Source: Microbacterium terregens (lineage in GTDB: Bacteria > Pseudomonadota > Alphaproteobacteria > Sphingomonadales > Sphingomonadaceae). From it: 64,000 nt of DNA. Position numbers and translations under genes: made by a program. Below, in pieces: positions 13,101 through 29,866 of the stretch. Positions within the stretch are counted from its first letter, which is position 1. Each line of letters opens with the position of its first letter. The DNA lies in NCBI RefSeq assembly GCF_027922045.1, contig NZ_BSEX01000006.1, positions 802,649-866,648 of the forward strand. The letters run 5' to 3'. Below the pieces are notes generated by a model. It searched no databases and was not told where the DNA came from. It saw nothing but the letters and a program-made list of their open reading frames with translations.

Positions 13101-14359
13101 CGCCAGGCGCGACGCTCCAGCTGACGAAGATCGGAACCCTGCGTCCCGGCAAGTTCTACACGCTGGTCACCGCGACCGACGGCATCAGCGGCCGCTATGC
13201 GACGATCCTGAAGCCCAGCGACCTGTTCGGCTTCGTCGTGCACCGCGCCGACAGCATCGACCTCCTGGGTCAGTTCGTCGATACCGGCGACTTCAGCCCG
13301 CAGGTCAGCCGCAGCATCGCCTATGCGAACCGCACGCTCGAGGTGCAGGGAGCGGACAGCGCGCTGTTCGATGCGCTGCCGGCGCTGCTCACCAGCACCG
13401 ACGGTTCCAATCCCGCGGCCTTCGCCCGCCTGACGCCGGAACCCTATGCATCGGCGACCCAGATGAGCGTCGACAACGCTCTGGGGCTGGTCGATGCGGT
13501 GCGCGGCCCCTCCTTTGCCGCCACCGGCGAAGGCCCGCGCGCCTTCACCTTCGCCTCGGCACTGGGCCAGTGGCATCGGCTGAGCGCGGATCCGACCGCC
13601 GGCACCTCGGCTGCCCGGACCCATGGCTACGGCTTCCTCGGCGGAATCGGCTATGGCGACGCGCACTGGAGCGTCGGCGCGTTCGGCGGGTATCGGGACA
13701 ACCGCCAGACCATCGATGCGCTCGGCGCCCGCACCAAGGCGGACGGCGTGGTCGCGGGCGTCCAGGGCCGCCTGCGCACCGCAGGGGGTCTGGGGCTCAG
13801 CACTTCCGTTCTCTACGATGGCGGTCAGGCGACCACCACGCGCACCCTGCCCGTCGGCTCTGCCACCGGGCGCTACGATCTGCACGCCTGGACGGGCGAT
13901 CTCAGGGCCAGCTACGAAGTCGCGCTACCCGGCGATTGGGCCGTGACGCCGCAGATCGGTCTCACCTATCTGCGCGTGACGCGGGACGGCGTGGCGGAGG
14001 CGGGCGGGAGCCCCTTTGCACTGGCGGTGGCGCGCAATCGTCATGTCGCCGGCTTTGCCGACGGCGCGATCGCGTTCGGCCGCAGCGAGGATTCGGGGGC
14101 GCGGTTCCGGCCATTCGTTTCACTCGGCCTTCGCTATCAGATCGAAGGGCTGCGGACCGAGGCACTGGGCGGCTATGCGGGCGGTGGCATGGGCCTCGAG
14201 GCGCTGGGCGCCGCCCGGTCGCGGATGGTGGGCACCGCCTCGGCAGGCGCGGCCTATCGCCTGAAAAGCGGTGTCGACCTGTTTGCGACCGCCGCGTCGC
14301 GGACCGGCAGCGACGATCACCAGGAGTCGGTCTCGGCCGGCGTGCGGCTCAATTTTTGA
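7130..14359 (+). CDS. giant type V autotransporter adhesin-like protein
   Basis: A 2409-residue secreted protein. A long signal peptide ends at AAAQAQ (about residue 35). The passenger is built of many short repeats around N-S/A-G-T-I (NSGTI, NAGTI, NRGTI), a pattern that folds as a right-handed beta-helix. From about residue 1410 the repeats become Asp/Gly-rich, with LGAGDDSF, GGDGTDTL and GGAGNDRL motifs resembling RTX calcium-binding nonapeptides. The C-terminal 270 residues form an autotransporter beta-domain ending in Phe (GVRLNF), the usual outer-membrane assembly signal. GGGGGG lies just upstream of the ATG. No protease or enzyme motif was found in the passenger, so adhesion or surface structure is the likely role. 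Confidence 0.9.
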   Translation: MIRYVSRARSRRVSFALGTSTLALGFLLPAAAQAQCAPEPTAANETTVCTGTDSDGIRVTTPGTGVRVETGAAVSNTNASAIAVDVPVSGGFSQTVSIDVLGSVSASGHDAIVVASGTPTSDTYYSRQEVTLTLGEGASVTGTTALALVQSPGNADGTVVATVNNSGTLIGTGGVALLGNVISTENGYPAQLTQFSTITNRASGRIVGGILGPVETLSNAGSIDGGSRSALETNYADVTNSAGATIRSASTGATISGGDAYYLTVENAGTIENSGAGGALSGGTVRVINEAGGRITGSITAATSLDLVNAGTIIGDIIGGWDSNTIDSTAGRVDGSLTLGDGDDTLISRYVGSRTLATGFSGTIGGGGGENTQRVQFATDTSVTTPIDLATGFQQLVLAADAGVTATLEAGFSTPRALVLGGRGTVVNRATIDLVGTAVTDLGYSFGSSAWFRNEGSITASLRGDNYEGGVELSNNNFANTGSLTVYGGTGVSMSYNDIDNSGTITATGKAVNVFDGVLTNSGTIVSTGGIGVDLYGNTGYTGSNSGTIRGATFGAVIGVDFTNSGTISSAETGVQVRPYGFFVNAAGGVVSGGTGPAITAYGFNAGVANAGVINGDVVFSGIDSPGSDLVYLALPGGMLNGNLILGGGATLVTDLVNTGPGAFAGISGTVTAGAASSLRYAVNADASATLPAGAVGPFSTAGYQLANGATLSLTAPAGQVRTQSLLLAGSGSVDLDADIFETTGAAAALTSVPSIPYPGAPNVADGLSIVSRGSLAINGEGADPYSWYTSGVVSLSMADSFTNAGVITVNDPMRHGLAGVFQGASVTNEGRILLDGGNGIAAFGTVVNTGTIEQLAGGLAGNGVTFASGSLDNRGTIKVDGSAVLVGSYFGSEPVSVTNSGTLASTTGPAVTSTDTFYRQLTLTNLAGGTIAGGNGIAVQVNGAVLRNAGVITGTVDLGYRAPNYPGDTSRSYLSSTYIADGGTILGDLLFGDWSDRFVVSSAGGAVSGIIDGGEGMDLYIHGLATSGIVTLGMSNVRNFEGQGVEVLGTDTVATIESDVPVAEVLYLSGDGQIVNTATIEGGVYSESMYNDPWAPAVLLTSFTNQGRIDGGFFAATQRFANSGSVGSDGFDGQAVAISQKAALDFTNSGSIASSGDDLAVRLYAQDTLAITNSGQITGGGIDGEVISREPVEGVTAPAPAPAIVMTNAGTISATGDNPAAAVSLAVTNYARLETSSVTLDNSGTIEAGMAGGTALSISTFARLTDTGVKSSAITINNSGTIRANGGGIAYEASYFNPPYTVPASAISVGAYAGGTIDIANASGGVIEATGPLSTAIATYAGALDLTNAGTIRGGAGSTLANDDYRALQNGTTYLAGAVQTIGDAADSVINTGTIIGSIALEGGNDSVENRGTLRGDVFLGAGDDSFLQQASAILEGMVNGGDGTDTLIIDATGGGTVNGDQFVDFERFNQVGNGNVTYAGTFHFDTIGVSGGTVTVAAGETLTSSGATAITGSDTDETVVNNDTIAGSVTLAGGADRVVNSGAITGSVLLGDGKDEFVEGLGSSVAGVVDGGAGTDLYTVVLAGDRSGITARTSFEQLRLEGTGTLTLVADQNFDSIALAGTSLDLSLGGYTVGSVNGSDAAETLTMASDIARVALGGGNDALALDTARPSGIYDGGSGNDALRFTAKGPVTLAGTAVHFETISLAGDALTVAGTLGSTGDTLTFGGGDQALTATRGGTLGGTIDLGAGDDSFRLAAGAMLAGTVAGGSGTDAATLELEGERTLDGRMLTGFEMLVTEGRGQLSLSGTHSLAAIVANTDLAIATNGTLRDAQVRFGGGDNRFTIAGGFAGSVDGGAGNDRLFVSGGSQAAPIAFGDLRNIESYTQTAGFAQLAGTASLSAVELVGGRLVGQAGSVLTAPQILVGRSATFGSAGTINGDVLVAGTLSPGASPGTMTMNGDVTLASGSTSLFELSSAVSDTLVVNGSLSIAPGATLQLTKIGTLRPGKFYTLVTATDGISGRYATILKPSDLFGFVVHRADSIDLLGQFVDTGDFSPQVSRSIAYANRTLEVQGADSALFDALPALLTSTDGSNPAAFARLTPEPYASATQMSVDNALGLVDAVRGPSFAATGEGPRAFTFASALGQWHRLSADPTAGTSAARTHGYGFLGGIGYGDAHWSVGAFGGYRDNRQTIDALGARTKADGVVAGVQGRLRTAGGLGLSTSVLYDGGQATTTRTLPVGSATGRYDLHAWTGDLRASYEVALPGDWAVTPQIGLTYLRVTRDGVAEAGGSPFALAVARNRHVAGFADGAIAFGRSEDSGARFRPFVSLGLRYQIEGLRTEALGGYAGGGMGLEALGAARSRMVGTASAGAAYRLKSGVDLFATAASRTGSDDHQESVSAGVRLNF

Positions 14360-15026
14360 GCCGCACGCTCCGACGAAGCACAGGCGCCCCGCACGCGGCC
14401 TGATCGGGCCGCGGTGCAGGCGCGCTCGTTTTCGCTCGCCGGAGCGATGCCCGCCGGGATCTAGAAACAGCAGCCAGGCAGCGGCCGCGGCTCAAGCTGC
14501 GGCGCGAACTCGCCCAACGTGTGGATCACAGTAGAATCCAATGATGCGCACCCCGCGCATCGCCGCTGTCTGCAGGCTTCCGGAATACAGTGTTGTCCTC
14601 GATACCCGGGGGGACTCCCGGGCAGCAATTTCAAAAGGCGCCGAGCTCTTCAAGCCCCTCACCAGCCTCCGCCCGGAGCGCGCCGAAGCCTCGCTGACCG
14701 CCTGTCGCGGCCTGGATCGAAGCAGTTCTTCCTGTATCGCGCGCGCCAGAAGCGCCACGGCTAGCCTCGCAAATGTGACCTTTGGCGATACCGAAATGCG
14801 CTCGAACAAGTGCCAGATCGCACCGGGCGGCAAGCTCGTCCGAAAGTCCCGGATCAATGTGGATGTAGGTCAGCTTGGGGCGCTTCCAGCAAGCCGGGCG
14901 GCCGCGGGCCGTCAAAAACGATGCGCAGTCGGATCGCATCGAAGAGCCGGGCGCCCTCGCCTCGCCTTCGCTGTCAAAACAGGTGAAAAAAACCGGCCTT
15001 CCCGAACGCGCGTAGCGCGGGAAGAG
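14360..15026. other. non-coding or unrecognised chromosomal DNA left of the island
   Basis: This 667-bp stretch lies between the autotransporter and the left end of the island. Open frames of 80-175 codons exist on both strands but overlap each other in all directions, lack ribosome binding sites and resemble no family I know. The only convincing element is a hairpin followed by a T-run at its right end, described separately. Confidence 0.4.
14986..15024 (-). terminator. terminator originally belonging to tRNA-Leu, displaced by the island
   Basis: Read on the minus strand, a CTTCCCG/CGGGAAG stem (15018-15024 with 14998-15004) is followed five bases later by seven T residues (A7 at 14986-14992). 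It sits immediately beyond the partial copy of the tRNA-Leu 3' end at 15027-15045, exactly where the tRNA's own terminator would have been before the island inserted. Confidence 0.65.
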
Positions 15027-15045
15027 TGGTGCCAGAAGAGGACTC
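15027..15045 (+). repeat. left attachment-site copy (partial tRNA-Leu 3' end)
   Basis: Nineteen bases repeat the 3' end of tRNA-Leu in the same orientation as the copy at 29780-29799. The last 14 bases (CCAGAAGAGGACTC) are identical; the left copy lacks one C of the tRNA copy. This marks the left junction of the island. Confidence 0.8.
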
Positions 15046-15709: not shown

Positions 15710-18700
15710 GTGTTTGGGGCGGGATCGGATTTGAAGAACAGCTTTTCGGGCATTCGCGATAATCGCTCGCGCGGCTCGGTTCATGAGTTTGTGACCTCGA
15801 CGGTTCGGCCGGGGAGCAAGCTATCCATCGTTTCGGCCTACTTCACCGCTGCGGCTCACGGTGCTCACCGGGAGGCTCTTGATGCTACGGGGGCCGTGCG
15901 CTTCCTGTTCGGCGAACCGCGTTTTCTGTCCATTGCCGACGCGGATGCGCTTAGCCCGCCAGCCTTCGCGATCACCGAGCAGGGATTGTCGCTCACTGAG
16001 CAGCTTCGCGCCCGGATGGAAGCATACCGATGCGCGAACTGGATTCGGGCCAAGGTAGAGGTGAGGTCGGTCCGCCGCGCCGGCCTGCTTCATGGTAAGA
16101 TGATTCACGTGCACGATGGCGCACGCGAGCACGCGCTGATCGGCAGCTCCAATTTCACGCTTCGCGGCTTGGGCTTCACCGACAAGCCGAACCTGGAGCT
16201 CAACCTGGTCGTGGACGGCGACCGAGACCGGGCGGACCTTCTCGCCTGGTTCGACGAAGCGTGGAACGACGACACGCTGACGACCGACGTCAAGGCGGAG
16301 GTGCTTGCGCGCTTGGAGCGGCTGTACACCTACAACGCGCCTGAGTTCATCTACTACAAAACGCTGTTCCACCTGTTCGAGAGTTACCTACTCGATCAGG
16401 ACTTGGAGGGGCGTGGGACGGAAGCGCTGACCGACAGCGCGGTCTGGAACATGCTGTTCGATTTTCAGCGCGACGGGGTGCGCGCGGTACTCGGCAAGCT
16501 CGACCGGCATGACGGCTGCATCCTTGCGGACAGCGTGGGTCTCGGGAAAACGCTGACGGCGTTGGCCGTGGTGAAATACTTCGAGTCCGCCCGAAAGCGG
16601 GTGCTGGTGCTCGCGCCCAAGAAGCTGCGGGAGAACTGGACGGCGTACCTGTCGAACAACGCGGAGCTGAACCCGCTCAAGCCCGACGGTTTCCGCTACG
16701 ACGTCCTGTCGCACACTGACCTGTCGCGGGAGACCGGGCACGTCGGAAACGTCGATCTGTCGACGCACGACTGGTCAGATTACGACCTGGTCGTCATTGA
16801 TGAGTCGCATAATTTTCGCAACGCTGGCGGCTCGCGCTATCGGCGACTGATCGAGAAAGCCTTGCAGCCCGGCGTACGGACCAAAGTACTGCTGTTGTCC
16901 GCCACCCCGGTCAACAACGACCTCCTCGACCTGAAGGCGCAACTCGACCTGGTCGCGCAGGACCGGACCGACGCCTTCCAGCCACTTGGCGTGCCCAACC
17001 TTCCCGGCCTGATCGGCGATGCCCGCCGAAAGTTTGCCGCGTGGTCCGCCAGGGGCGGCCGCGATCCGATGGCGCTGATGAACACGCTACCGACGGGTCT
17101 GACCACCCTGTTGGACGGCGTGTCGATCGCGCGGTCGCGCCGCCATATCGAGCGTCACTACGCCGCGTCGCTCGACCGCATCGGACGATTTCCGACCCGC
17201 GAGCGGCCTCAATCCATTTTTGTCGAGATCGACCGCGCGCGCGCCTTTCCCTCGTTCGCCGAGGTGGATGCGGGCATCAGCGGCCTGAAGCTCGCGCTCT
17301 ACAATCCGTTCAGCTACGTGCTCGACGAGCACAAGGCGCGGTACGACGAGGCAGGGCGCAGGCCATCCGGCTTCGACCAGGCCAACCGCGAACGTTACCT
17401 GATCGCGATGATGAAGGTCGGCTTCCTGAAGCGGCTGGAGAGCTCGATCGCATCGTTCGGCCGGACCATGGACCGAATGGAGGCGCGCATCGACACGCGG
17501 CTTACTGACATTGCTCGGCTCCGCGCTGAGATCGCGGAGGAGAACACGGGCGGGAACGAGCCGTCGGATGCCGAGGAGCTGGACGGCGACGATGAACTCG
17601 CCGGCGCGTTCGAGGTCGGACGCGGCTTGCGGTACGACTTGCGTCACATCGATGTCGAGCGCTGGGCGACGGATCTCGCCCATGACCGGGAGCTGATCGC
17701 CCAGCTTGCGGCACAAGCGCGCGAGATTTCCCCGGAGCGCGACGCAAAGCTGGCGGAGCTGAAGGCGCTGGTCGCTGACAAGGTGGCGAACCCGACGCGC
17801 AACCGAGACGGATCGCCCAACCGGAAGCTGATCCTTTTCACCGCCTATACCGACACCGCCGCCTATCTGTACGAGCAGCTCCGCCCCTTCGCCCAGGGGT
17901 TGGGAGTAGAGGTCGGCTTGGTCGCGGGTAGTCGCTGTGAGGCCACGTTCGGCCGGGCGCGATTCCAGGAGGTGCTGACGAACTTTTCCCCGCGGTCGAA
18001 GCGGCGTGGGGCGCTGAAGGCATTGCGGCAGGACGGCGAGATCGACCTGCTCATCGCCACCGACTGCATTAGCGAGGGTCAGAACCTCCAGGATTGCGAC
18101 CGGTTGGTGAACGTCGACATTCACTGGAACCCGGTGCGCCTCATCCAGCGCTTCGGTCGGATCGATCGCATCGGCGCGGTGGCAGACAGCATCCGTATGG
18201 TCAATTTCTGGCCCACCGCCGACCTGGATCGCTATCTCAGCCTCAAGGACCGCGTGGAAGCGCGCATGGCGCTGGTCGATCTTTCGGCGACGGGGGAAGA
18301 TAATCTACTGGCGGAGGCGCGGACCGCGGCGGAGGCCGACCTGCATTGGCGCGACGGCCAGCTCCGCCGCCTCCAGGACGAGGTATTCGACCTGGAGGAT
18401 GCCGGCCACGGCGTCGGGCTGACGGAGTTCACGCTCGACGAGTTCCGCGCCGACCTGCTCCACCATGTTAAGCAGCACCGCGACGCCCTGGCGGATGCGC
18501 CGTTCGGCCTTCATGCGATCGTGCCTTCGCACGTGGAAGGCGGAAGGCTGGAACCAGGCGCGATCTTCTGCTTGCAGCGCCGTGGTGAGCCGGATGGAGG
18601 TTCGACCAAGGTCGCTCCGCTCGATCCATTCTACCTGCTATACGTTCGTGACGACGGCTCTATCCGGCACGGCTTCGCGCAGCCGAAGACCGTACTGAAT

Positions 18701-18976
18701 GCTTTCCAGGCGCTTTGCGTCGGACGGAATGCGCCGATCGAAGAGCTGTGCGCCGCGTTCGATCGCGAGACCGAGCAGGGTGCGCGCATGGAGCGATATA
18801 CGGGGCTGGTCGAAGCGGCCGTGCGGTCGATCACCGGGGAGTATGGCGCACGGGCGCTGGGCGCACTGGCGGCCCTACGCGGCGGCAAGCTTGCGAACCA
18901 GGAAGCCCAGCCGAAAGGGACAGAGGACTTTGAACTCGTCACCTGGCTGGTGGTCAGGGCGGAGGAGACCCGATGA
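15710..18976 (+). CDS. PLD-nuclease/SNF2 helicase fusion, first gene of Hma-like defence operon
   Basis: A 1088-residue protein. The N-terminal part has a phospholipase-D type HKD motif (HGK at 128-130, GSSN at 145-148), as in PLD nucleases. The SNF2-type helicase core follows: Walker A ADSVGLGKT (about 273-281), DESH box (364-367), LLLSATP (394-400), and a C-terminal lobe with SEGQNLQ and the arginine finger segment QRFGRIDRIG (about 785-820). It should move on DNA using ATP and may cut it. The GTG 15710 is the earliest start; TTG 15731, preceded by GGGCGGGA, is equally possible. Its stop overlaps the methyltransferase start (ATGA). DISARM DrmD and Hma helicases are the closest recalled relatives. 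Confidence 0.85.
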   Translation: MFGAGSDLKNSFSGIRDNRSRGSVHEFVTSTVRPGSKLSIVSAYFTAAAHGAHREALDATGAVRFLFGEPRFLSIADADALSPPAFAITEQGLSLTEQLRARMEAYRCANWIRAKVEVRSVRRAGLLHGKMIHVHDGAREHALIGSSNFTLRGLGFTDKPNLELNLVVDGDRDRADLLAWFDEAWNDDTLTTDVKAEVLARLERLYTYNAPEFIYYKTLFHLFESYLLDQDLEGRGTEALTDSAVWNMLFDFQRDGVRAVLGKLDRHDGCILADSVGLGKTLTALAVVKYFESARKRVLVLAPKKLRENWTAYLSNNAELNPLKPDGFRYDVLSHTDLSRETGHVGNVDLSTHDWSDYDLVVIDESHNFRNAGGSRYRRLIEKALQPGVRTKVLLLSATPVNNDLLDLKAQLDLVAQDRTDAFQPLGVPNLPGLIGDARRKFAAWSARGGRDPMALMNTLPTGLTTLLDGVSIARSRRHIERHYAASLDRIGRFPTRERPQSIFVEIDRARAFPSFAEVDAGISGLKLALYNPFSYVLDEHKARYDEAGRRPSGFDQANRERYLIAMMKVGFLKRLESSIASFGRTMDRMEARIDTRLTDIARLRAEIAEENTGGNEPSDAEELDGDDELAGAFEVGRGLRYDLRHIDVERWATDLAHDRELIAQLAAQAREISPERDAKLAELKALVADKVANPTRNRDGSPNRKLILFTAYTDTAAYLYEQLRPFAQGLGVEVGLVAGSRCEATFGRARFQEVLTNFSPRSKRRGALKALRQDGEIDLLIATDCISEGQNLQDCDRLVNVDIHWNPVRLIQRFGRIDRIGAVADSIRMVNFWPTADLDRYLSLKDRVEARMALVDLSATGEDNLLAEARTAAEADLHWRDGQLRRLQDEVFDLEDAGHGVGLTEFTLDEFRADLLHHVKQHRDALADAPFGLHAIVPSHVEGGRLEPGAIFCLQRRGEPDGGSTKVAPLDPFYLLYVRDDGSIRHGFAQPKTVLNAFQALCVGRNAPIEELCAAFDRETEQGARMERYTGLVEAAVRSITGEYGARALGALAALRGGKLANQEAQPKGTEDFELVTWLVVRAEETR

Positions 18977-21900
18977 GCGCGCAGGTCGAGCGCCGAGTCG
19001 CCATTCGATCCGCCCTGCTGGCCGCTGACGCCGGACCATGGCGCGAGCGCGCGGCCAGCATATTGCGGGCGCTGGGTTACGACAGCCCCAAGACGCTGGA
19101 TACCGGCGGAAAGCCCGCCAGCTTCGCGCAGGCGCTAGAGATCGATGCTGCCCGGCTGCCACGGTTCGACGAGTGGCGGTCGCTCGACCTCGTCTTCCAG
19201 CTCACCGGGGATGAGCTGCCGGCGCTCAGCCGCGGCGCGGAACCCGGCACCGGCGATCGGGTGCAACGCGGCGCGATCGACTCGTTCCTGTTCGTGAGCG
19301 CCGATCTGGCGGGTGCGTGGCGGCGCAAGGAGCTGACGGACGCCGTACGCGTATTCAATCGCGCCACGTCGATGCCCGCCATCCTCCTGTTCCGTCACGA
19401 GGGAGAGGACGGGTCGCCCCGCGCCACTATCGCGGTGATCGACCGGCGCGACCATCGACGCCTTCAAGGCGCGCAGGTTGTCGACGGGCGCATCAGCCTG
19501 ATCAAGGACATCGACCTTCGCCAACCCCATCGCGCGCATCTGGAGATCCTGACCGATCTGTCGTTAGGCGCGCTCGGCTCCAAGCGGACGATTGCGGATT
19601 TCCGTACGCTATACGACGCGTGGCTCGACACCTTGTCCGCGGCCGAGCTCAATAGGCGCTTTTACGGCGAGCTCGCCAACTGGTTCGCCTGGGCGAGCAC
19701 GCTCGACAGCGTGAGGTTTCCGAAAGGTCAGGGGAACGGCGAGGGCGCCAAGGAGACGGCACTTATTCGGCTGCTGACGCGGTTGATGTTCGTTTGGTTT
19801 ATCAAGGAGAAGGGGTTGGTTTCGCCCGCCTTGTTCAGTCGGGAGGGCCTGGAAGCGCTGCTCACCGAGCCGCCCCACGAGCATGGGGAACGCCACAACT
19901 ATTATCTCGCGGTCCTTCAGAACCTGTTCTTCGCGACGCTTAACACCGAGTGGGGAGAGCGGGCGTGGTTGTCGCGATCGAGCGAGCGGCGATCGGCCGA
20001 TTTCTTCGGCCACAATGTGTTTCGGCACCAGGCCATGTTCCGCGATCCAGAACAGGCGCTTCAGCTGTTCGATCACGTCCCCTTTCTAAACGGCGGGCTC
20101 TTCCAATGCTTGGACGTGCTGGTCGAGCCGGGCGATCCGCGCGAGAAGCTCGCGGAGCGCGAGGGGCAGGCGCTGATCCTCCGGGTCGACGGATTTTCCG
20201 AGAAGGAAGCCAAGCAGCCGCGCCTGCCCAACCGGCTGTTCTTCGGCGGCGAAAAGGGTGTCGACCTGTCGGGCTGGTACGGCAGGGGCAAGCCGAAGGA
20301 CGTCCCCGGCCTAATTGAGCTCTTCGAGCGCTACAAATTCACCGTCGAAGAAAACACGCCGCTTGAAGAGGAGGCGGCGCTCGACCCGGAGCTGCTTGGC
20401 AAGGTCTTTGAGAACCTGCTCGCCTCCTACAACGAGGACACGCGCACCACCGCGCGCAACAAGTCGGGCAGCTTCTACACGCCGCGCGAGGTGGTCGACT
20501 TCATGGTCGACGAAGCGCTGGTGGCGTGGCTCATGCCGAAGCTGGATGGCGGAGCAGGGGACGCGGAGCGGGGCATGTCGCCCGCCGCGCCGACCTTCGA
20601 TCTCGGCCCGTCGCGCAGTGAGCTGGCGCTTGAGACGAGCGGGACCTCGGGTCAAGCCCGGGGTGATGAAGCGAGAAGCGCCTCCACCCCCACCGTCACC
20701 CCGGCCTCCGATCCGGGGTCCCGCTTATCGGCCATCGAGGCCAAGCTTCGCCACCTTCTCTCCTACGCCAGCCACGATCACGACTTCTCGCCTGCGCAAG
20801 CCGACCAGCTCATCGCCGCCATCGAGGCCTGCCGCGCCATCGATCCTGCCGTTGGTTCGGGCGCGTTCCCGCTGGGGCTGCTCCAGAAGCTGGTCCACGT
20901 CCTGGGGCTTCTCGACCCTGGTGGAGAGAAATGGAAGGCGCGCAACCGAGCTTCGTTTGAAGCGCGACTGGCGGCGGCGGAGGCGATGCCCTCGCCGTCC
21001 GACCGCGAAGCCGAGCTGGCGAGCGCGACGGAGGCGCTCGCGGCGTTCGAACGCGCCTACGCCAGCGGCCACACCGCCGATTACACGCGCAAGCTCTACC
21101 TGATCGAGCGCGTGCTCCACGGCGTCGACGTGCAGCCAGTGGCGGTGCAGATCACCAAGCTGCGCTGCTTCATCAGCCTAGCGGTCAGCCAGGTGATCGA
21201 CGACGGCCGGCCCAATCGTGGGGTGACGCCGCTTCCCAATCTGGAGACCAAGTTCGTCGCCGCGAACACGCTGACCCCGCTCCACAAGCGCCAGGGCACG
21301 CTGGCGAGCCGTGAAGCGTTCGCCAAGCAGCGAGCGCTGCGTGAAGCGAGCCGCGCCTTCTTCGCCGCCGCCAACGGCGCGGCCAAGCGGCGCGCGCAGG
21401 AGCGGATCAGGGTTCTACGCCGGGAGATCGCCGACGAGCTGGCGGGCGCGGACGCTTACCCGAATGAGGAGATCGCGGCGCTGGCAAAATGGGATCCGTT
21501 CGATCCAAACGCGTTCGCGCCCTTCTTCGACGGCGAATGGATGTTCGGCTTGGAGCCGCAGGCGAGCGAGGGCGGCTTCGACCTGGTGCTCGCCAACCCA
21601 CCTTATGTGCGCCAGGAGAAAATCGAAGGCTTCCTGATCAACGGCCAGCCGGTCGTCGCCAAGCCGCAGCTCAAGCGCGACTACGCCACCTATGCCGGCA
21701 CCGCGGACCTGTTCGTCTACTTCTACGAGCGCGCGCTGCGGCTGCTGAAGCCGGGCGGTGCGCTCGCCTTCATCACGTCCAACAAGTGGTACCGAGCTGG
21801 CTATGGCAAGTCCTTGCGCGGTTGGCTGGTCGAGCAGGCGCGCGTCCTCAAGCTCGTCGACTTCGGCGACGCCCCTGTATTCGAAGCGATCGCGTACCCC

Positions 21901-23061
21901 ACGATCCTGATCGCGACGCGCAAGGTCGCGCCCGCGAGGCCGGCCCCGTCCGAGACAATCCGGGTGATGAACTGGACGGCGGGCGAGCCGGTCGAACGCT
22001 TTCCGGAGCGCTTCGCGCGCGAGGCATTCGACCTGCCCCAGGCGGCGCTGGCGTCCACGAGTTGGCAGTTCGAGCCGCAGGCCGAGCGCGACTTGCTCCG
22101 CCGCCTCCGCGAGCGCGGTATGCCGCTCGCCGAGTGGTGCGGCGGGCGGTTCTACTACGGCATCAAAACCGGGTTGAACGACGCCTTCGTGATCGACGGC
22201 AACAAGCGCGCCGAGCTGATCGCCGCCGACCCGGCGAGCGCCGAGATCGTCAAACCGTTCCTGCGCGGCCGCGACGTGAAGCGGTGGCGGGTGGAGTCAA
22301 AGGACCTATGGCTAATCTTCAGCCGCCACCGGATCAATATCGATCGCTATCCGGCGGTGAAGAGACATCTAGAGCAGTTCCACGAGCAGCTGGAACCCAA
22401 ACCAGCAAGCTGGCCTTCTTCCAAGCCTTGGGCAGGCCGAAAGGCGGGCAGCTACCGCTGGTATGAAATCCAGGACAATGTGGCATACTGGCAGGAGTTC
22501 GAGCAGCCAAAAATCATCATTCCTGCAATCGAAAAACGTGTCGCCTACGCCAGCGACGACGGCACCTATTTCAGCAACGACAAGACCAGCATCGCGGTGA
22601 CAGACCGCCCGTCTTATACGCTCGCCGTTCTCAACTCGTCCGTCTCGTGGTGGATCACTCGACAGGAGTTCGCGTCAAAGCAGGGCGGCTTCTACGAGTT
22701 CAAGCCGATGTACGTCGGCAAGCTCCCCATCCCGCCCGCCACTCCCGAGCAGGAGGCGCTGGTCACGGCCGCGGTGGATGCGATCCTGGCCGGCGCGGGC
22801 GAGCGCGCCCGGCTGGAGGCGCTCATCAACGCCTTCGTCTACGAACTCTTCTTCCCCGAAGACCTCGCCGCCGCCAACCTCTCCCCCTTCCGCGCCGCCC
22901 GCAACGCGAACTTGGAGGCGCTGACCTCGCTGACAGGGCTCACGCTTGCGCAGGCAGCCGAGAGCTGGTCCCGCCAACTCGCCGACCCCGCAACCCCGCT
23001 CTACGCAACGCTATTCGGCCTGCGATCGCTGGAAGCGGTTCGCATCATTGAGGGGGTGTGA
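18973..23061 (+). CDS. large N6-adenine DNA methyltransferase with target-recognition region (Eco57I/PglX-like)
   Basis: A 1362-residue protein. An N-terminal region of about 480 residues resembles that of Eco57I-family methylases but shows no clear PD-(D/E)xK nuclease motif. The methyltransferase core has motif X (SFYTPREVVDFMV, near 495-510), SAM-binding motif I (DPAVGSGAF, near 627-635) and catalytic NPPY (near 874-877). The C-terminal part looks like a TaqI/PglX-type specificity domain (KPFLRGRDVKRW near 1095-1106). It probably marks host DNA at a specific site. Between motifs X and I lies a Pro/Ser-rich insertion encoded by an in-frame palindromic repeat. The ATG overlaps the helicase stop, and its TGA overlaps the ATPase start. 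Confidence 0.88.
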   Translation: MSAQVERRVAIRSALLAADAGPWRERAASILRALGYDSPKTLDTGGKPASFAQALEIDAARLPRFDEWRSLDLVFQLTGDELPALSRGAEPGTGDRVQRGAIDSFLFVSADLAGAWRRKELTDAVRVFNRATSMPAILLFRHEGEDGSPRATIAVIDRRDHRRLQGAQVVDGRISLIKDIDLRQPHRAHLEILTDLSLGALGSKRTIADFRTLYDAWLDTLSAAELNRRFYGELANWFAWASTLDSVRFPKGQGNGEGAKETALIRLLTRLMFVWFIKEKGLVSPALFSREGLEALLTEPPHEHGERHNYYLAVLQNLFFATLNTEWGERAWLSRSSERRSADFFGHNVFRHQAMFRDPEQALQLFDHVPFLNGGLFQCLDVLVEPGDPREKLAEREGQALILRVDGFSEKEAKQPRLPNRLFFGGEKGVDLSGWYGRGKPKDVPGLIELFERYKFTVEENTPLEEEAALDPELLGKVFENLLASYNEDTRTTARNKSGSFYTPREVVDFMVDEALVAWLMPKLDGGAGDAERGMSPAAPTFDLGPSRSELALETSGTSGQARGDEARSASTPTVTPASDPGSRLSAIEAKLRHLLSYASHDHDFSPAQADQLIAAIEACRAIDPAVGSGAFPLGLLQKLVHVLGLLDPGGEKWKARNRASFEARLAAAEAMPSPSDREAELASATEALAAFERAYASGHTADYTRKLYLIERVLHGVDVQPVAVQITKLRCFISLAVSQVIDDGRPNRGVTPLPNLETKFVAANTLTPLHKRQGTLASREAFAKQRALREASRAFFAAANGAAKRRAQERIRVLRREIADELAGADAYPNEEIAALAKWDPFDPNAFAPFFDGEWMFGLEPQASEGGFDLVLANPPYVRQEKIEGFLINGQPVVAKPQLKRDYATYAGTADLFVYFYERALRLLKPGGALAFITSNKWYRAGYGKSLRGWLVEQARVLKLVDFGDAPVFEAIAYPTILIATRKVAPARPAPSETIRVMNWTAGEPVERFPERFAREAFDLPQAALASTSWQFEPQAERDLLRRLRERGMPLAEWCGGRFYYGIKTGLNDAFVIDGNKRAELIAADPASAEIVKPFLRGRDVKRWRVESKDLWLIFSRHRINIDRYPAVKRHLEQFHEQLEPKPASWPSSKPWAGRKAGSYRWYEIQDNVAYWQEFEQPKIIIPAIEKRVAYASDDGTYFSNDKTSIAVTDRPSYTLAVLNSSVSWWITRQEFASKQGGFYEFKPMYVGKLPIPPATPEQEALVTAAVDAILAGAGERARLEALINAFVYELFFPEDLAAANLSPFRAARNANLEALTSLTGLTLAQAAESWSRQLADPATPLYATLFGLRSLEAVRIIEGV
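20638..20725. repeat. REP-like palindrome inserted in frame inside the methyltransferase gene
   Basis: Left arm 20638-20667 and right arm 20695-20725 are imperfect inverted repeats sharing AGCGGGACC and CCGGGGTGA cores, separated by about 27 bases. The element keeps the reading frame and encodes a low-complexity Ser/Thr/Pro/Gly segment. It resembles the palindromic intergenic repeats of sphingomonads. Confidence 0.75.
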
Positions 23062-24530
23062 TGCCGGTTCGGGTCGATCGTATCGTCGTATCTGATTTCC
23101 GTGCCTTTCCGGCGCTTGCGCCGGCCGACATCCGGATCGGCGGATGCAACCTCCTGGTCTACGGTGAGAATGGGTCAGGGAAATCCTCCATTTACCGCGC
23201 GTTGCGTGGCCTGTTCTCGACCGAGGAGCAGGACATCCTTTCGTCGCGGAACGTGTTCACAGACCCGCCGCAGCCTAACGTCCGCGTCACCCTAACGGAT
23301 GGGAGGGAGCTGAGTTGGTCCGCGGCTGGTCACCCGGGTCAGGACGTGCACGATATCGCGCGCCGATCCGCTTTCCTCAGCCATACGCGGCTTGCCGAGA
23401 TGAACACCGGCGCCACACCTGACGATCGGCCTAACCTGTTCAAGGTGGCCGTGGAACGGCTGCTCGCCGATTACGAGGCCACCATTGGTGGGACCGGTCA
23501 AACGGTTGGCCAATTATGGACGGCGCTAAACGAAGCGCTCGCCCGCCGGGAGCAGTACGCCGGCAAATCAGGTCTGCGGCGCTACCGAGACCACGCGGAC
23601 GTCGTCGAGCGCGCATTGGCCCGCTTCAATGACGGCATGAATCAAGCGGTCGGCGCACTCGAGGGGCACGCCAAAGCCCTGCTCCGGCGGCTACTCGACG
23701 TGTTCGGTCGCGATTCTCTGGAGCTGATCGGGCTGACCTACTTCGGCGTCACTTACGACCGAAAGGCGGACAAGCTCGGCAACGAGACGCTAACGGCGCA
23801 GGTCCGCTTCCGCACCCACGATCCGGGTGCGCCTCAGCGCTTCCTCAATGAAGGCCGACAATCCGCGCTCGCAATCTCGATCTACCTCGCGGGCCGGCTC
23901 GCCTCGGTTCCGGTCAACGATGACCTGCGACTGTTGGTCCTCGACGATCTGCTAATCAGCCTCGATCATTCGCATCGCCGCCCCGTCCTCGACGTCGTCG
24001 CGGACTCGTTCAAAGGCTGGCAGATCATATTGCTGACTCACGATCGCTTCTGGTTCGAGATGGCGAGAGAACAGCTGCTCAACGAACCGTGGAGATCAGT
24101 CGAAATCTACGAGAACACCGATGGAGATGGCCTGCTTCGCCCACTTGTGTGGGAAAGCGCGGACAATCTGGTCGACGAAACGCTCAAACAGGCGAGCCAC
24201 TTCCTTCAAACCAATCAACCTGCCGCCGCGGCAAATTATGCCCGGACTGCATGCGAGCTGACCCTGCGACGCTACTGCAAAAACCATGGCATCCAGTTCG
24301 CGTACACAGACGAGCCCAAAAAGATCAAGCTAGACGAACTGCTTCGCCGTGCAGAGGCGCATGGAGCCGGTGATCCAACCCATGTCGCAGCTTTCACAGA
24401 GGTAAAACGCTACAAGAAGCTGATACTCAATCCTCTTTCGCACGATCCGACACAGCCTGTGTCGAAAGCCGATGTCCAGGCGGCCATTCTCGCCGTCAAA
24501 GGTTTGGTGAAAATCTGTAAGAGGTCGTGA
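23061..24530 (+). CDS. SMC/RecF-like AAA ATPase, third gene of Hma-like operon
   Basis: A 489-residue ABC-type ATPase: Walker A GENGSGKSS at 35-43, a signature-like helix (LNEGRQSALAISIYLA, about residues 270-285), Walker B LLVLDDLLISLD just beyond, and the switch His in LLTHDRFW. The middle 150-240 region is short and helical, so it is not a full coiled-coil SMC. The last 115 residues form a separate helical domain containing ILNPLSHD, reminiscent of HEPN-like folds (N-x3-H) but lacking the preceding Arg. ATG 23061 shares a base with the methyltransferase TGA; GTG 23058 directly before it is an alternative start. It probably regulates or gates the helicase/methyltransferase pair. Confidence 0.85.
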   Translation: MPVRVDRIVVSDFRAFPALAPADIRIGGCNLLVYGENGSGKSSIYRALRGLFSTEEQDILSSRNVFTDPPQPNVRVTLTDGRELSWSAAGHPGQDVHDIARRSAFLSHTRLAEMNTGATPDDRPNLFKVAVERLLADYEATIGGTGQTVGQLWTALNEALARREQYAGKSGLRRYRDHADVVERALARFNDGMNQAVGALEGHAKALLRRLLDVFGRDSLELIGLTYFGVTYDRKADKLGNETLTAQVRFRTHDPGAPQRFLNEGRQSALAISIYLAGRLASVPVNDDLRLLVLDDLLISLDHSHRRPVLDVVADSFKGWQIILLTHDRFWFEMAREQLLNEPWRSVEIYENTDGDGLLRPLVWESADNLVDETLKQASHFLQTNQPAAAANYARTACELTLRRYCKNHGIQFAYTDEPKKIKLDELLRRAEAHGAGDPTHVAAFTEVKRYKKLILNPLSHDPTQPVSKADVQAAILAVKGLVKICKRS

Positions 24531-24837: not shown

Positions 24838-25869
24838 ATGCCTGACGGCGAACTGATCCTGTACCAGACCGAGGACGGGCTCGCCCGCGTGCAGCTTCGC
24901 GCTGCGGACGGAACGGTGTGGCTTACCCAAGCCGAGATCGCTGAGCTGTTCGACACTAGCAAGCAGAACGTCAGCCTGCATCTGCGCAACCTGTTCGATG
25001 AGGGCGAACTGGTGCAGGACGCAGTTGTCAAGGAATCCTTGATTACTGCCGCCGACGGAAAGGCCTATCGGACGGCGATCCATAACCTCGATGCCATCCT
25101 GGCGGTCGGCTATCGCGTCCGCTCCGAGCGCGGAGTCCAGTTCCGCCGCTGGGCGACTACCCAGCTGCGCGAGTATCTGGTTAAGGGCTTCGTGATCGAC
25201 ACGCGGCGGCTCTCCGATCCGGAGCCGTTCGATTATTTCGACGAGCTGCTCGAACGCATTCGTGAAATTCGGGCGTCGGAGAAGCGCTTCTACCAAAAGG
25301 TCTGCGACCTGTATTCGACCGCCTCCGACTATAACGGCGACAGCGAGCGGGCAAAGGCGTTCTTCGCCGCTGTCCAGAACAAGCTGGAATATGCCGTTAC
25401 TGGAGCGACCGCGCCCGAGCTGATCGTGGCCCGCGCGGACGCAGCCAAGCCGAACATGGGGCTGACCGCGTGGAAGGGCAGCCGCGTCCGCAAGGGCGAT
25501 GTGACCACCGCCAAGAACTACCTTCTAGAAGAGGAAATGACGCGGCTGAACCGCATCGTATCGGCCTACCTGGATATCGGCGAGGAAATGGCGAGCAGGC
25601 GACAAGCCATGACTATGGCCGATTGGGAGAGCCGGGTGGACGAGTATCTGCGTTTTCTCGGCCTCCCGGTGCTCCAGGGCGGCGGCAAAGTGAGCCGCGC
25701 CCAGGCTGATACGATCGCGCACCAGCGGTACGAGCGGTTCGACGTCGCCCGGCGCGATGCGGAGCGGCTAGCGGCGGACGCGGCCGCCGAGCGCGATCTG
25801 AAAGCGATCGAAGCGCAAGCGGCGCGATTGGCGAAGCGGAGCCGCCGATCGGACGGGACCTTAGACTGA
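24838..25869 (+). CDS. RhuM family protein
   Basis: A 343-residue protein of the RhuM (virulence/phage-associated) family. The N-terminal domain contains a predicted winged helix (VWLTQAEIAELFDTSKQNV) followed by the family core (HNLDAILAVGYRVRSERG, then FRRWATTQLREYLVKGF). The C-terminus is a charged helical region rich in Ala and Arg. RhuM genes often sit in pathogenicity or restriction islands, but no biochemical activity is established. The ATG at 24838 has only a weak GGAG 13 bases upstream. It lies 12 bases before the GmrSD gene and the two are probably co-transcribed. Confidence 0.85.
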   Translation: MPDGELILYQTEDGLARVQLRAADGTVWLTQAEIAELFDTSKQNVSLHLRNLFDEGELVQDAVVKESLITAADGKAYRTAIHNLDAILAVGYRVRSERGVQFRRWATTQLREYLVKGFVIDTRRLSDPEPFDYFDELLERIREIRASEKRFYQKVCDLYSTASDYNGDSERAKAFFAAVQNKLEYAVTGATAPELIVARADAAKPNMGLTAWKGSRVRKGDVTTAKNYLLEEEMTRLNRIVSAYLDIGEEMASRRQAMTMADWESRVDEYLRFLGLPVLQGGGKVSRAQADTIAHQRYERFDVARRDAERLAADAAAERDLKAIEAQAARLAKRSRRSDGTLD

Positions 25870-25881
25870 GGGGGAGGATGA

Positions 25882-27732
25882 ATGCGTCCCTACGCGAAAT
25901 CCATCATAGAGCTGTTCGACGGCAAGAAGCGCTATCTGATTCCGCTCTACCAGCGCCAATACGCCTGGAAGGTGCAGCCGCAGCTCGAGCTGCTGTGGGA
26001 GGATATCGAACGCGCCGTCATGCGGCTCGCGTCCGATCGGGTCGGCGCGGCGCCGCATTTCATGGGCGCAATCGTGATCGCGGAGATCAAGACGTTCGAC
26101 AAGCAGGTCCGCGCCTATGAGGTGATCGACGGGCAACAGCGGCTCACCACCTTCCAGCTCCTGCTGGCCGCGATCCGCGATGTCGCGGCCGCGCACGGTT
26201 CCGGCTATGCGGCCGAAATCGACAAGCACCTGCTTAACGACGGCGTCATGGAGACGCCGCACGTGGAGCGGTACAAGCTCTGGCCGACCGCGACGGACCG
26301 CCGCGCATTCGTCCATCTGATCGACTCCGCCGCGGACCTCGCCAAGATCGCCGCACCGTCGATCGAGGACGGCGACGGAGTCCGCCCGGCCGCGGCTGCG
26401 CACGCCTGGTTCCGCGCGCGCATTGAGGAGCATGTCGGCAAGGACGAGAGCTTCGACGAGTTCCGACTGGAGAAGCTGTTCGAGGCGCTGAAGAGCGGCC
26501 TAGCGGCGGTGTCGATCGAGCTGGAGACCGGCGACGATCCGCAGACCATCTTCGAAACGCTGAACAGCCGCGGCGTCGATCTCACCGCCGGCGACCTGAT
26601 GCGCAACTTCATCTTCCAGCGCGCCAAAGGTATGGGACAGAAGGACGGCTCGCTCAGCATCGACGATCTATATGCAACCTACTGGTTGCCGCTGGACGGC
26701 TGGTTCTGGCGCGAAGGCGACACGCGCGGCCGCCTCACCCGTCCACGGCTCGATTGGCTGCTGGTTGACCACCTCGCGATGGAAAAGGCGGATCTCGTCT
26801 CCGTCGACCAGCTCTTCGAGAGCTATCGCCGCTGGGTTCTGACTAAACAGCCGTTCGCGGACGTGACCGCGGAACTGAAGGCGATTTCCGAAAGCGCCGC
26901 CGTCCACCGCTGGGTTGCGGAGCAGGGCTCCGGCCTGCTCGGACGTTTCGGGCGGTTCGCCCAGGCGTTCGACGTTTCGACGGCGATGCCGCTTGTACTG
27001 TACCTCGTCACGGGAGCGAAGCTCGATGGCGCAGGCCTAGAAGCCGCGCTTGGCATGATCGAGTCGTTCATCTTGCGCCGCGACATCTGCGGCCTGCCCA
27101 CGGGTAATTATAACCGCCTGTTCGTGGCTGCAATCGAGCGTTTGCGGACGTCGGTTGGCTCCACCCTTGAAGAGCTGCAGCAGTACCTGTCGAGCGGCCA
27201 AATCGACACGGCGCGGTGGCCAGCGGATGACGAGTGGAAGCGAGCTTGGCTCGGTCACGATCAGTACAAGCCGAGCCGCCAGGGTCGCCTGCGCTACCTC
27301 TTCGAGGCTCTTGAGCGCGCCAAGCGGAGCGTGCTGAACGAGGATATCGAAATTAAGTCGGCGCTGACGGTCGAGCACATCATGCCCCGTAAGTGGAGGC
27401 AGCACTGGCCGGTTCCCGGTTTCGACCACCTCGCGCCTGGGGACGTCGATGTCGACCAGATGATGCGCGAGACGCAGCGCGAGCAGTTCGTCAACAACAT
27501 CGGCAACCTGACTCTGCTGACGTCCGCGCTAAATAGCTCCGCCTCCAACGCTCCCTTCGAAATCAAGATGCCCAAGCTGAGGGCACAGACAAGCCTCGCG
27601 CTCAATCGCGAGCTGAACGCCTACGATCATTGGGACGAGACAACTATCACGCACCGGGGCGCCGCCTTGTTCGAGGTGGCTCGGAAGATCTGGCGCGCAC
27701 CGTCCGGTTCCGTGGCAGCTCAGGCCGCCTGA
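25882..27732 (+). CDS. GmrSD-type type IV restriction enzyme (DUF262-DUF1524 fusion)
   Basis: A 616-residue fused type IV restriction enzyme. The N-terminal DUF262 (GmrS-like) NTPase/ParB-like domain carries YQRQYAW near the start and the DGQQRLTT motif at about 82-90. The C-terminal DUF1524 (GmrD-like) domain has the HNH-family segment TVEHIMPRKW (His near 498) and the companion NNIGNLTLLTSALN. Such enzymes cut phage DNA carrying modified, often glucosylated, hydroxymethylcytosine. It has a strong GGGGGAGG ribosome binding site at 25870-25877. An ATG at 25878 is out of frame. It complements a methylation-based system by attacking modified invaders. Confidence 0.9.
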   Translation: MRPYAKSIIELFDGKKRYLIPLYQRQYAWKVQPQLELLWEDIERAVMRLASDRVGAAPHFMGAIVIAEIKTFDKQVRAYEVIDGQQRLTTFQLLLAAIRDVAAAHGSGYAAEIDKHLLNDGVMETPHVERYKLWPTATDRRAFVHLIDSAADLAKIAAPSIEDGDGVRPAAAAHAWFRARIEEHVGKDESFDEFRLEKLFEALKSGLAAVSIELETGDDPQTIFETLNSRGVDLTAGDLMRNFIFQRAKGMGQKDGSLSIDDLYATYWLPLDGWFWREGDTRGRLTRPRLDWLLVDHLAMEKADLVSVDQLFESYRRWVLTKQPFADVTAELKAISESAAVHRWVAEQGSGLLGRFGRFAQAFDVSTAMPLVLYLVTGAKLDGAGLEAALGMIESFILRRDICGLPTGNYNRLFVAAIERLRTSVGSTLEELQQYLSSGQIDTARWPADDEWKRAWLGHDQYKPSRQGRLRYLFEALERAKRSVLNEDIEIKSALTVEHIMPRKWRQHWPVPGFDHLAPGDVDVDQMMRETQREQFVNNIGNLTLLTSALNSSASNAPFEIKMPKLRAQTSLALNRELNAYDHWDETTITHRGAALFEVARKIWRAPSGSVAAQAA

Positions 27733-28395: not shown

Positions 28396-29615
28396 TCAAC
28401 GCCTGCCGAACGCTCCCTTCAGGACCTTCCCGCTCGACCGGATTTCGTCGAGCTGGTCGGACCAGGACTGCATCATCCTGACGCGCTCCTCCCAGTGTTC
28501 GCCGCGCGCATAGGCGCGGCGAACACCATTGCCCTCGACGTGCGCGAGCTGCCTTTCGATCGCATCCGGGTGCCACTTGCCCGTCTCATTGAGCAGCGTG
28601 CTCGCCATCGCGCGGAAGCCGTGGGAGGTCATCTCCTCGCCCGTATAGCCGAGCCGACGGAGCGCCTGATTGAGCGTGTTCTCCGACATCGGACGACGCG
28701 AGGTGTAGAAGCTCGGGAACACGTACTGACCCGCGCCGGTGATGCCACGAAGGTTGGTTAGGATCTCCAGCGCTGGATCGAAAGCGGCACGCGATGCGGC
28801 CGGCGCATCTTCATCTTGTTGGCCGGGATCGTCCCGATGGCGGCGTCTAGATCGATCTCCGACCACTCGGCATGGCGCAGCTCGCCGGGTCGCACGAACA
28901 GGTGCGCGGCCAGTTGAAGTCCCGCCCGTGTCGTCGCATGGCCGGTGAAATCGTCGATCGCGCGGAGCAGCACGCCGACCTCAACCGGGTCCGTGATTGC
29001 CGCGCGGTGGGTCACCTTTGGGGTGATCAGAGCGTCGCCCAGCGCGGACGAGATATCGTGCTGCGCCCGTCCGGTAGCGATGGCGTAGCGGAACACCCGG
29101 CCGCTGACGCTCCGCAGTCGGCGGGCGCTCTCATAACGACCGCGCCCCTCGACGCTGCGGAGGACGGCCAGCAGCTCCAGCGGCAGAATGTCGGCGATCG
29201 GACGGTCACCGATCAGCGGATAGGCGAAGTCGAGTAGCCACCGGATTTTGCCGAGCGTGACATCGGCTCGACCCTCCTTCTCGACCTTCGCCAGCCATTC
29301 CTCCGCGATGTCCTTGAACGTGGTAGCGGACGAGAGCGAAGCGATCAGCTTGTCCCGCTTCTTGCGCGCGAACGGGTCTTCGCCCGCGGCCAGTGCGCTT
29401 CGCGCCCTGTCACGTGCTTCCCGCGCGTCGGCGAGGCTGACCTTCGGGTATACGCCGAGAGCAAGCGTCTTGTAGCGGCCGCTCAGGCGGTAGTTCAGCC
29501 GCCAGTAGCGGCCGCCCTGCGGCGTCACCAACAGATAGAGGCCGTCGGCATCGTTGAGCTTGTAGGCTTTGTCCCGGACCTGCGCTTTGGACACGGCCAA
29601 TGCTGAAAGAGGCAT
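28396..29615 (-). pseudogene. P4-type tyrosine integrase, frameshifted
   Basis: The 5' part (29615 to about 28780) encodes the arm-binding DUF4102 domain (KLNDADGLYLLVTP), the core-binding domain and the first catalytic Arg (VRPGELRHAEW). The 3' part continues in another frame with ALEILTNLRG, the HGFRAMAST box (H-x-x-R) and the RRAYARGEHW segment with the likely nucleophile Tyr. Loss of one G at CCAGCGCTGG (28767-28776; CAGGCGCTGG expected) would explain the shift. Without correction the product ends after about 285 residues, lacking the second Arg and the Tyr. The gene abuts tRNA-Leu, its presumed integration target. A sequencing error is the alternative. Confidence 0.85.
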
Positions 29616-29779: not shown

Positions 29780-29799
29780 TGGTGCCCAGAAGAGGACTC
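29780..29799 (+). repeat. right attachment-site copy within the tRNA-Leu 3' end
   Basis: Twenty bases covering the CCA end, acceptor stem and part of the T-arm of tRNA-Leu. The last 14 bases match the left copy at 15032-15045 exactly, in direct orientation. The island end therefore keeps the tRNA intact. Confidence 0.8.
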
Positions 29800-29866
29800 G
29801 AACCTCCACGACCTTGCGATCGCCAGCACCTGAAGCTGGTGCGTCTACCAATTCCGCCATCTGGGC
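29780..29866 (-). tRNA. tRNA-Leu (anticodon CAG)
   Basis: The 87-nt minus-strand gene folds as a class II tRNA. The acceptor stem is GCCCAGA with TCTGGGC, the D-arm contains AATTGGTAGA, and the anticodon stem CCAGC/GCTGG encloses loop TTCAGGT with anticodon CAG. A long variable arm and a T-arm with TTCGAGT follow. Discriminator A and an encoded CCA close the 3' end. Its 3' end is the island's integration site. Confidence 0.95.

Follow-up and report, generated by a model that had tools for sequence, protein, structure and literature searches.

Three large genes at positions 15710..24530 of a 64,000-nucleotide stretch of contig NZ_BSEX01000006.1 (assembly GCF_027922045.1, Microbacterium terregens; the whole stretch is called the window below) are best read as a restriction-modification (R-M) system with its own fail-safe. 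The first gene (HEL) specifies a PLD-helicase that would cut DNA, the second (MT) a methyltransferase that would mark self DNA, and the third (ATP) a predicted PrrC-like ABC-HEPN RNase that would be held on a conserved C-terminal domain of MT, named TAIL. We give this reading a probability of about 0.6. What the analysis shows is the gene order and its conservation, an ABC head and a HEPN fold in ATP (both as models), an invariant Arg-Glu-His triad in ATP, no conserved nuclease motif in MT, and the recurrence of TAIL, in proteins of other kinds, beside ATP. A defence role for the operon is plausible. Its features are as follows.

15710..18976, + strand: HEL, gene 1, 1088 amino acids, GTG start; PLD (HKD-type) nuclease fused to SNF2-type helicase
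16013..16264, + strand: PLD nuclease domain of HEL, residues 102-185 (PLDc_2); H128 at 16091, K130 at 16097, N148 at 16151
18973..18976, + strand: HEL/MT overlap in the sequence, 4 bases, ATGA
18973..23061, + strand: MT, gene 2, 1362 amino acids; adenine methyltransferase, TaqI-like specificity domain, C-terminal TAIL
22252..22731, + strand: TaqI_C specificity domain of MT, residues 1094-1253 (Pfam)
22732..23058, + strand: TAIL domain of MT, residues 1254-1362; predicted docking piece for ATP (profile matches)
23058..23061, + strand: MT/ATP overlap in the sequence, 4 bases, GTGA
23058..24530, + strand: ATP, gene 3, 490 amino acids, GTG start; RecF/SMC-type ABC ATPase with C-terminal HEPN domain
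24153..24527, + strand: predicted HEPN domain of ATP, residues 366-490 (fold search); invariant R396 (24243), E400 (24255), H462 (24441)

An earlier description made without database searches (the sequence-only reading) had proposed that the three genes overlap by a few bases and encode a PLD-helicase, an N6-methyltransferase with a specificity region and an ATPase. The open reading frames (ORFs) were confirmed, each junction is of four bases, and the parts list holds by Pfam. Translational coupling at both overlaps is likely. The HEPN domain of ATP and the conserved tail of MT had been missed.

Gene order and conservation of the operon

A search of bacteria and archaea, each species represented by one genome, with an alignment of 40 ATPases gave at least 142 confirmed relatives of ATP. 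The best 80 loci were searched with HEL, MT and ATP profiles, and the partner counts are based on the 61 of them in which 6 kb or more of sequence precedes ATP. HEL lies upstream of ATP, on the same strand, in 46 of the 61 loci, and in 38 of these it ends less than 300 bp from MT; a partner with no helicase in view precedes ATP in 15. The HEL-MT-ATP order was seen in records named Proteobacteria, Bacteroidetes, cyanobacterium (Pseudanabaena), planctomycetes and Chlorobiaceae, and further in Latescibacteria, Anaerolineaceae, Aminicenantes and Verrucomicrobia. Because the same order recurs across several phyla, the operon is more than a product of chance, and we regard HEL-MT-ATP as a genuine, widespread R-M-like operon. 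Among 150 relatives of the nearest genome, 13 gave ATP matches, all of them short and weak; no E. coli DNA match was found, and a related ATPase is present in three plasmid records. Word searches confined to open-licence papers found no description of the HEL-MT-ATP set.

These data bear on the possibility that the cluster is degenerate or incidental, a type IIG-like enzyme sharing a defence island with an ATPase to which it is unrelated and with which it hardly works together. The integrase nearby is incomplete, the MT and ATP frames are broken in the G072 relative (L046), and ATPases are broken or deleted in three further relatives. The three genes of the window, however, are unbroken, carry motifs that are invariant in relatives and are joined by four-base overlaps, and their order is found again in distant phyla. 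An incidental cluster appears highly unlikely.

Pfam places PLDc_2 at residues 102-185 of HEL (E 8.8e-8), SNF2 at 253-418 and Helicase_C at 702-822. Residues H128, K130 and N148 of the PLD domain, the Walker A sequence GLGK including its lysine (K280), and D364-E365/H367 (DExH) are invariant in 20 of 20 HEL sequences, a set that includes two (L047 and L048) with no ATP in view. MT contains an Eco57I methylase domain (residues 715-970) followed by the TaqI_C specificity domain (1094-1253); its motif I (624-632) and NPP (875-877) are invariant in 19 of 19 members, and the PADLOC REase_MTase_IIG model matches all 19. Type IIG enzymes carry an N-terminal nuclease motif within the methyltransferase polypeptide. 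No Asp, Glu, Lys or Gln column conserved at 60% or more was found in residues 1-260 of MT (46 sequences), suggesting that the nuclease of the system is probably the PLD domain of HEL; MT as a self-sufficient IIG nuclease was rejected on the same result. Annotation by profile would lead to the type IIG label, by which the likely nuclease and the likely fail-safe would both be overlooked.

The C-terminal domain of ATP

The predicted ABC head of ATP is matched in Pfam by SMC_N (E 2.7e-10; 40.5 bits, cut-off 40) as well as by AAA_21 and further P-loop families; its Walker A motif (lysine K42) and residues D296, D297 and D303 are kept in 76 of 76 relatives. A domain model and a fold search predict a HEPN fold for the second domain, residues 366-490. 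Across this domain in 77 ATPases (that of the window and the 76 of 86 matches longer than 420 amino acids) only R396, E400 and H462 never vary, at a median C-terminal identity of 25%. A Ser precedes the triad His in 66 of the 76 relatives, and the spacing is Arg-x3-Glu, then at least 56 residues (median 61) to His. For PrrC and RloC, Davidov and Kaufmann (PMC2610378) give the triad as Arg-x3-Glu-x36-52-His, often with Ser before His, and report that changing R692, E696 or H737 of RloC to Ala abolishes activity. PF13166-family proteins of other genomes end RSIME...LNLLSH, RQVLE...INSLSH or RCVLE...NSLSH, against RTACE...LNPLSH in the window's ATP; in ten PF13166-family C-termini compared, Arg and His are invariant and Glu nearly so. 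A mere SMC/RecF repair protein would have a head like that of ATP, but this reading was rejected in view of the HEPN domain and the operon. The sequence-only reading had raised the question of how the ATPase might hold back or set off the helicase. The ATPase is confirmed, but the question changes, since the protein itself has a predicted RNase domain.

Several points weigh against an active RNase of the PrrC type. The Glu-to-His spacing of ATP exceeds the range stated for PrrC/RloC, and the arginine of the classical HEPN motif Rx4-6H is absent, with L457-N458 in its place. The window's HEPN slice scores E 0.099, below the Pfam cut-off, and Foldseek E-values for the HEPN domain alone are weak (best 0.011, none below 0.001). 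Alignment by hhalign to ten PrrC/RloC-type C-termini gave a probability of 36%, and no HEPN protein was found when the HEPN slices were compared with the PDB by sequence. PF13166 (AAA_13), which we take to be the model standing for PrrC/RloC, reaches 27.4 bits on ATP against a cut-off of 36. HEPN domains lacking the full motif may be non-catalytic, as stated in PMC3710099. Sequence matches in the PDB span single domains only. The VIA-align list for whole ATP is filled by the ABC head, and the lack of HEPN there is no counter-evidence.

It is conceivable that the HEPN domain has no catalytic activity and is a module for binding or dimerisation, the ABC ATPase gating the PLD-helicase as a DNA clamp or a switch, a role that the sequence-only reading presupposed. 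Fixation of the three triad residues alone, amid a domain that otherwise diverges so far, fits catalysis better than a binding surface. Moreover, ATP also follows the helicase-less partners counted above, so that helicase gating cannot be its general job. We consider a dead HEPN domain unlikely, if by no means negligible.

At one locus (L199:7684-8022) the ABC-HEPN ORF is reduced to 112 amino acids, about 12 N-terminal residues plus the HEPN part, without an ABC head, and a RhuM-like ORF lies downstream; this headless form is either a natural deletion or an assembly fault.

The tail of MT and a proposed mechanism

The specificity domain of MT is followed by the conserved TAIL, the profile of which also matches the C-termini of other kinds of protein encoded directly 5' of ATP. 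A TAIL ORF, whether MT or another tail-bearing partner, lies upstream of ATP in 58 of the 61 loci, and 48 of these partners end within 300 bp of ATP. This recurrence points to TAIL as a predicted connector, or docking piece, for ATP. The association has its exceptions, which count against such a role: three loci (L124, L131 and L138) have no TAIL upstream of ATP, TAIL is more than 300 bp from ATP in 10 of the 61, and ATP is missing downstream of two helicase-MT-TAIL loci (G782 and G869). Several TAIL partners have a part of the specificity domain in common too, and the unit may therefore be larger than TAIL alone. Methyltransferases of the kind seen in L047 and L049 lack TAIL.

The known example of a restriction enzyme guarded by a suicide RNase is that of PrrC. 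Its R-M enzyme keeps PrrC silent, and a phage anti-restriction factor frees it (PMC2610378, PMC3710099, PMC12707154). For the operon of the window we infer methylation, DNA cutting, RNase activity, binding of ATP to TAIL, a logic of silencing and release, and defence, arranged as follows. HEL and MT would constitute the R-M pair. The target site would be marked by MT, a predicted adenine methyltransferase, while HEL would travel along unmarked DNA and its predicted PLD nuclease would cut. ATP would stay docked on TAIL with its HEPN domain silent. A phage inhibitor blocking the complex, or prolonged engagement with foreign DNA, might then change the state of the ABC head, and the released HEPN domain would cut tRNA and stop translation. 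The choice of tRNA as target is suggested solely by likeness to PrrC and RloC. The same guardian idea seems to have become fixed here as a gene of a different restriction system, TAIL staying with ATP as the front enzyme changes. If this is true, the long-standing question of how a guardian RNase senses a blocked restriction enzyme becomes directly testable via TAIL.

Tail-bearing proteins of other kinds were also observed. At L075:7626-10004, L079:6198-10004, L078, L080, L082 and L086 they are TPR proteins, in most cases with a TIR domain at the N-terminus, and their C-termini combine a TaqI-type specificity domain and TAIL. The ABC-HEPN gene follows immediately and no helicase is in view; these proteins look like sequence-reading TIR effectors. 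The L078 tail has 566 relatives, and among the 120 listed, those with a named source are mostly from Poribacteria. TAIL is fused to GmrSD_N proteins in L106 and probably also in L128, and GmrSD-family genes adjoin the ABC-HEPN gene at L103, L111, L092 and in the window (25882-27732). Two helicase-MT-TAIL loci are without ABC-HEPN. One of them (L206:7421-12388) has, downstream, a SIR2-domain gene (Pfam) and, by reading, a HerA-like ATPase; in the other (L205:2564-3640) helicase and MT are separated by an additional ORF that, by reading, resembles a YhcG/DUF1016 nuclease.

Known systems and genomic setting

ATP resembles RloC and the PrrC of EcoprrI (a type Ic R-M system with an ABC-HEPN anticodon nuclease) in its N-terminal ABC and C-terminal HEPN parts and in the pattern Arg-x3-Glu...(Ser)His; like ATP, the PrrC gene is tied to an R-M operon. 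PrrC-like genes are described in R-M loci together with RhuM genes (PMC3710099), and a RhuM companion is common to such loci and the window operon. Unlike PrrC, ATP has as its partner a PLD-SNF2 helicase with a one-piece MT carrying its own specificity domain, rather than HsdMSR. It differs from both PrrC and RloC in falling below the PF13166 cut-off, in having no zinc hook (no CxxC was found in ATP), in its longer Glu-to-His spacing and in its link to a shared TAIL.

The sequence-only reading had assigned the operon to the Hma type, a name that the PADLOC authors gave to a set of helicase, m5C methyltransferase and ATPase (PMC8565338). In PMC12839542, HmaC is a DUF499 AAA+ protein, the Hma set is now called BREX-related (BR), and Type-2 BR pairs an HKD-SNF2 helicase with an N6-methyltransferase, DUF499 being sometimes fused to HEPN. 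The operon shares with Hma and Type-2 BR its three genes, its N6-methyltransferase and its ATPase, and HEL has the HKD nuclease N-terminal to SNF2 (residues 102-185 and 253-418), as in Type-2 BR. In contrast, ATP is an ABC instead of a DUF499 AAA+ protein, and MT scores as type IIG-like. The PADLOC search that had been proposed did give matches for all three genes, but Hma was not the best: HEL is led by C3a139 'HKD+Snf2' at 321 bits, with HmaA only sixth (91 bits, residues 574-823). HmaC was not among the 18 PADLOC families listed for ATP, nor HmaB among the 25 listed of 52 for MT. Membership in Hma was therefore rejected. The lack of drmA and drmB was borne out, as neither gene was present among the 7 island ORFs scanned. 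HEL has a 62-bit partial match to the DrmA helicase, and NCBIfam DrmD scores 153 bits on it against a cut-off of 610; DISARM was rejected as well.

The CxC ABC-ATPase systems (PbeABCD) are described as combining an HKD + SF2 helicase, an ABC ATPase, a zinc hook, DndE and often methylases (PMC10853773). The operon shares the HKD nuclease-SF2 helicase fusion and the ABC ATPase, but ATP has an extra HEPN domain. A divergent BREX-related (Hma-like) or PbeABCD-like system would agree with the helicase and methyltransferase pairing of Type-2 BR, with the composition of the CxC loci and with weak matches to the PbeA (40 bits) and PbeC profiles. However, DUF499 gave no match in the three genes at E<=0.001 (Pfam), no standalone DUF3780 was found among the island ORFs given to Pfam, and no DndE-type gene among the scanned island ORFs, small ORFs lying outside these scans. 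ATP is, besides, entirely without CxxC. Type-2 BR and CxC/PbeABCD were both rejected on these results, and a divergent member of either is very improbable. Because the HKD-SNF2 layout and the occasional DUF499-HEPN fusion occur in Type-2 BR, the operon looks like a parallel design to it with an unrelated ATPase. We class it as a predicted guardian RNase joined to R-M, outside Hma, DISARM, BR, CxC and PF13166.

In type ISP enzymes cutting is coupled to translocation, and a single polypeptide comprises nuclease, translocase, methylase and specificity domain. A type ISP enzyme 'split into parts', as the operon had been called, is a likely analogy as regards translocation-coupled cutting; as membership it fails, the genes being separate in the window and in relatives. 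MT shares with type IIG a methyltransferase joined to a TaqI-like specificity domain. The operon departs from both types in that MT shows no conserved nuclease motif, as well as in its separate polypeptides, in its PLD nuclease and in the added ABC-HEPN protein.

HEL has the domain layout of the C3a139 'HKD+Snf2' helicases found beside type III R-M. The helicase-family search lists 187 of 299 genomes, with full-length-type scores at 16 places, the remainder being generic helicase matches. MT and ATP accompany just one of these 16 strongest matches (L046), both in broken frames; of the other 15, the two run through Pfam (L031 and L037) have DUF4391 and a type III Res gene alongside. In the set L031-L045 the helicases stand next to a methylase, DUF4391 and a type III Res gene, as Pfam shows for the same two loci; this layout would correspond to a PLD-helicase added to type III R-M.

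The features to the right of the operon are listed below.

24838..25869, + strand: RhuM-family gene, directly 3' of ATP (Virulence_RhuM, E 6.5e-103, Pfam)
25882..27732, + strand: GmrSD-family gene (GmrSD_N and GmrSD_C, Pfam)
28758..29615, - strand: incomplete integrase ORF, a mark of a mobile island (Pfam Phage_integrase, only positions 7-73 of 172)
29780..29866, - strand: tRNA-Leu (cag), right edge of the accessory DNA (tRNA call)

The RhuM- and GmrSD-family genes are regarded as companions, with no claim that they belong to the system. A RhuM-like ORF follows ATP in L132 and, by reading, in L199, but not in the nearest relatives, and the RhuM gene may therefore be island cargo. From tRNA-Leu rightwards, 2 kb match the nearest genome at 97%; on the left, the stretch 12300-14360 has a single 65-base match there, so that by comparison with that genome this side is accessory DNA. 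An exact direct repeat of 14 bases (15032-15045, just 5' of the operon, and 29786-29799, within tRNA-Leu; E 0.058) is a possible attachment-site remnant, unproven and too weak to set the left edge of the island. Just left of the island genes, an ORF of 2409 amino acids (window 7130-14359) has no Pfam match and faces an ORF of 922 amino acids on the opposite strand. The end of the larger ORF shows about 66-71% DNA identity in 5 of 21 genomes of the genus, the nearest genome having the one 65-base match.

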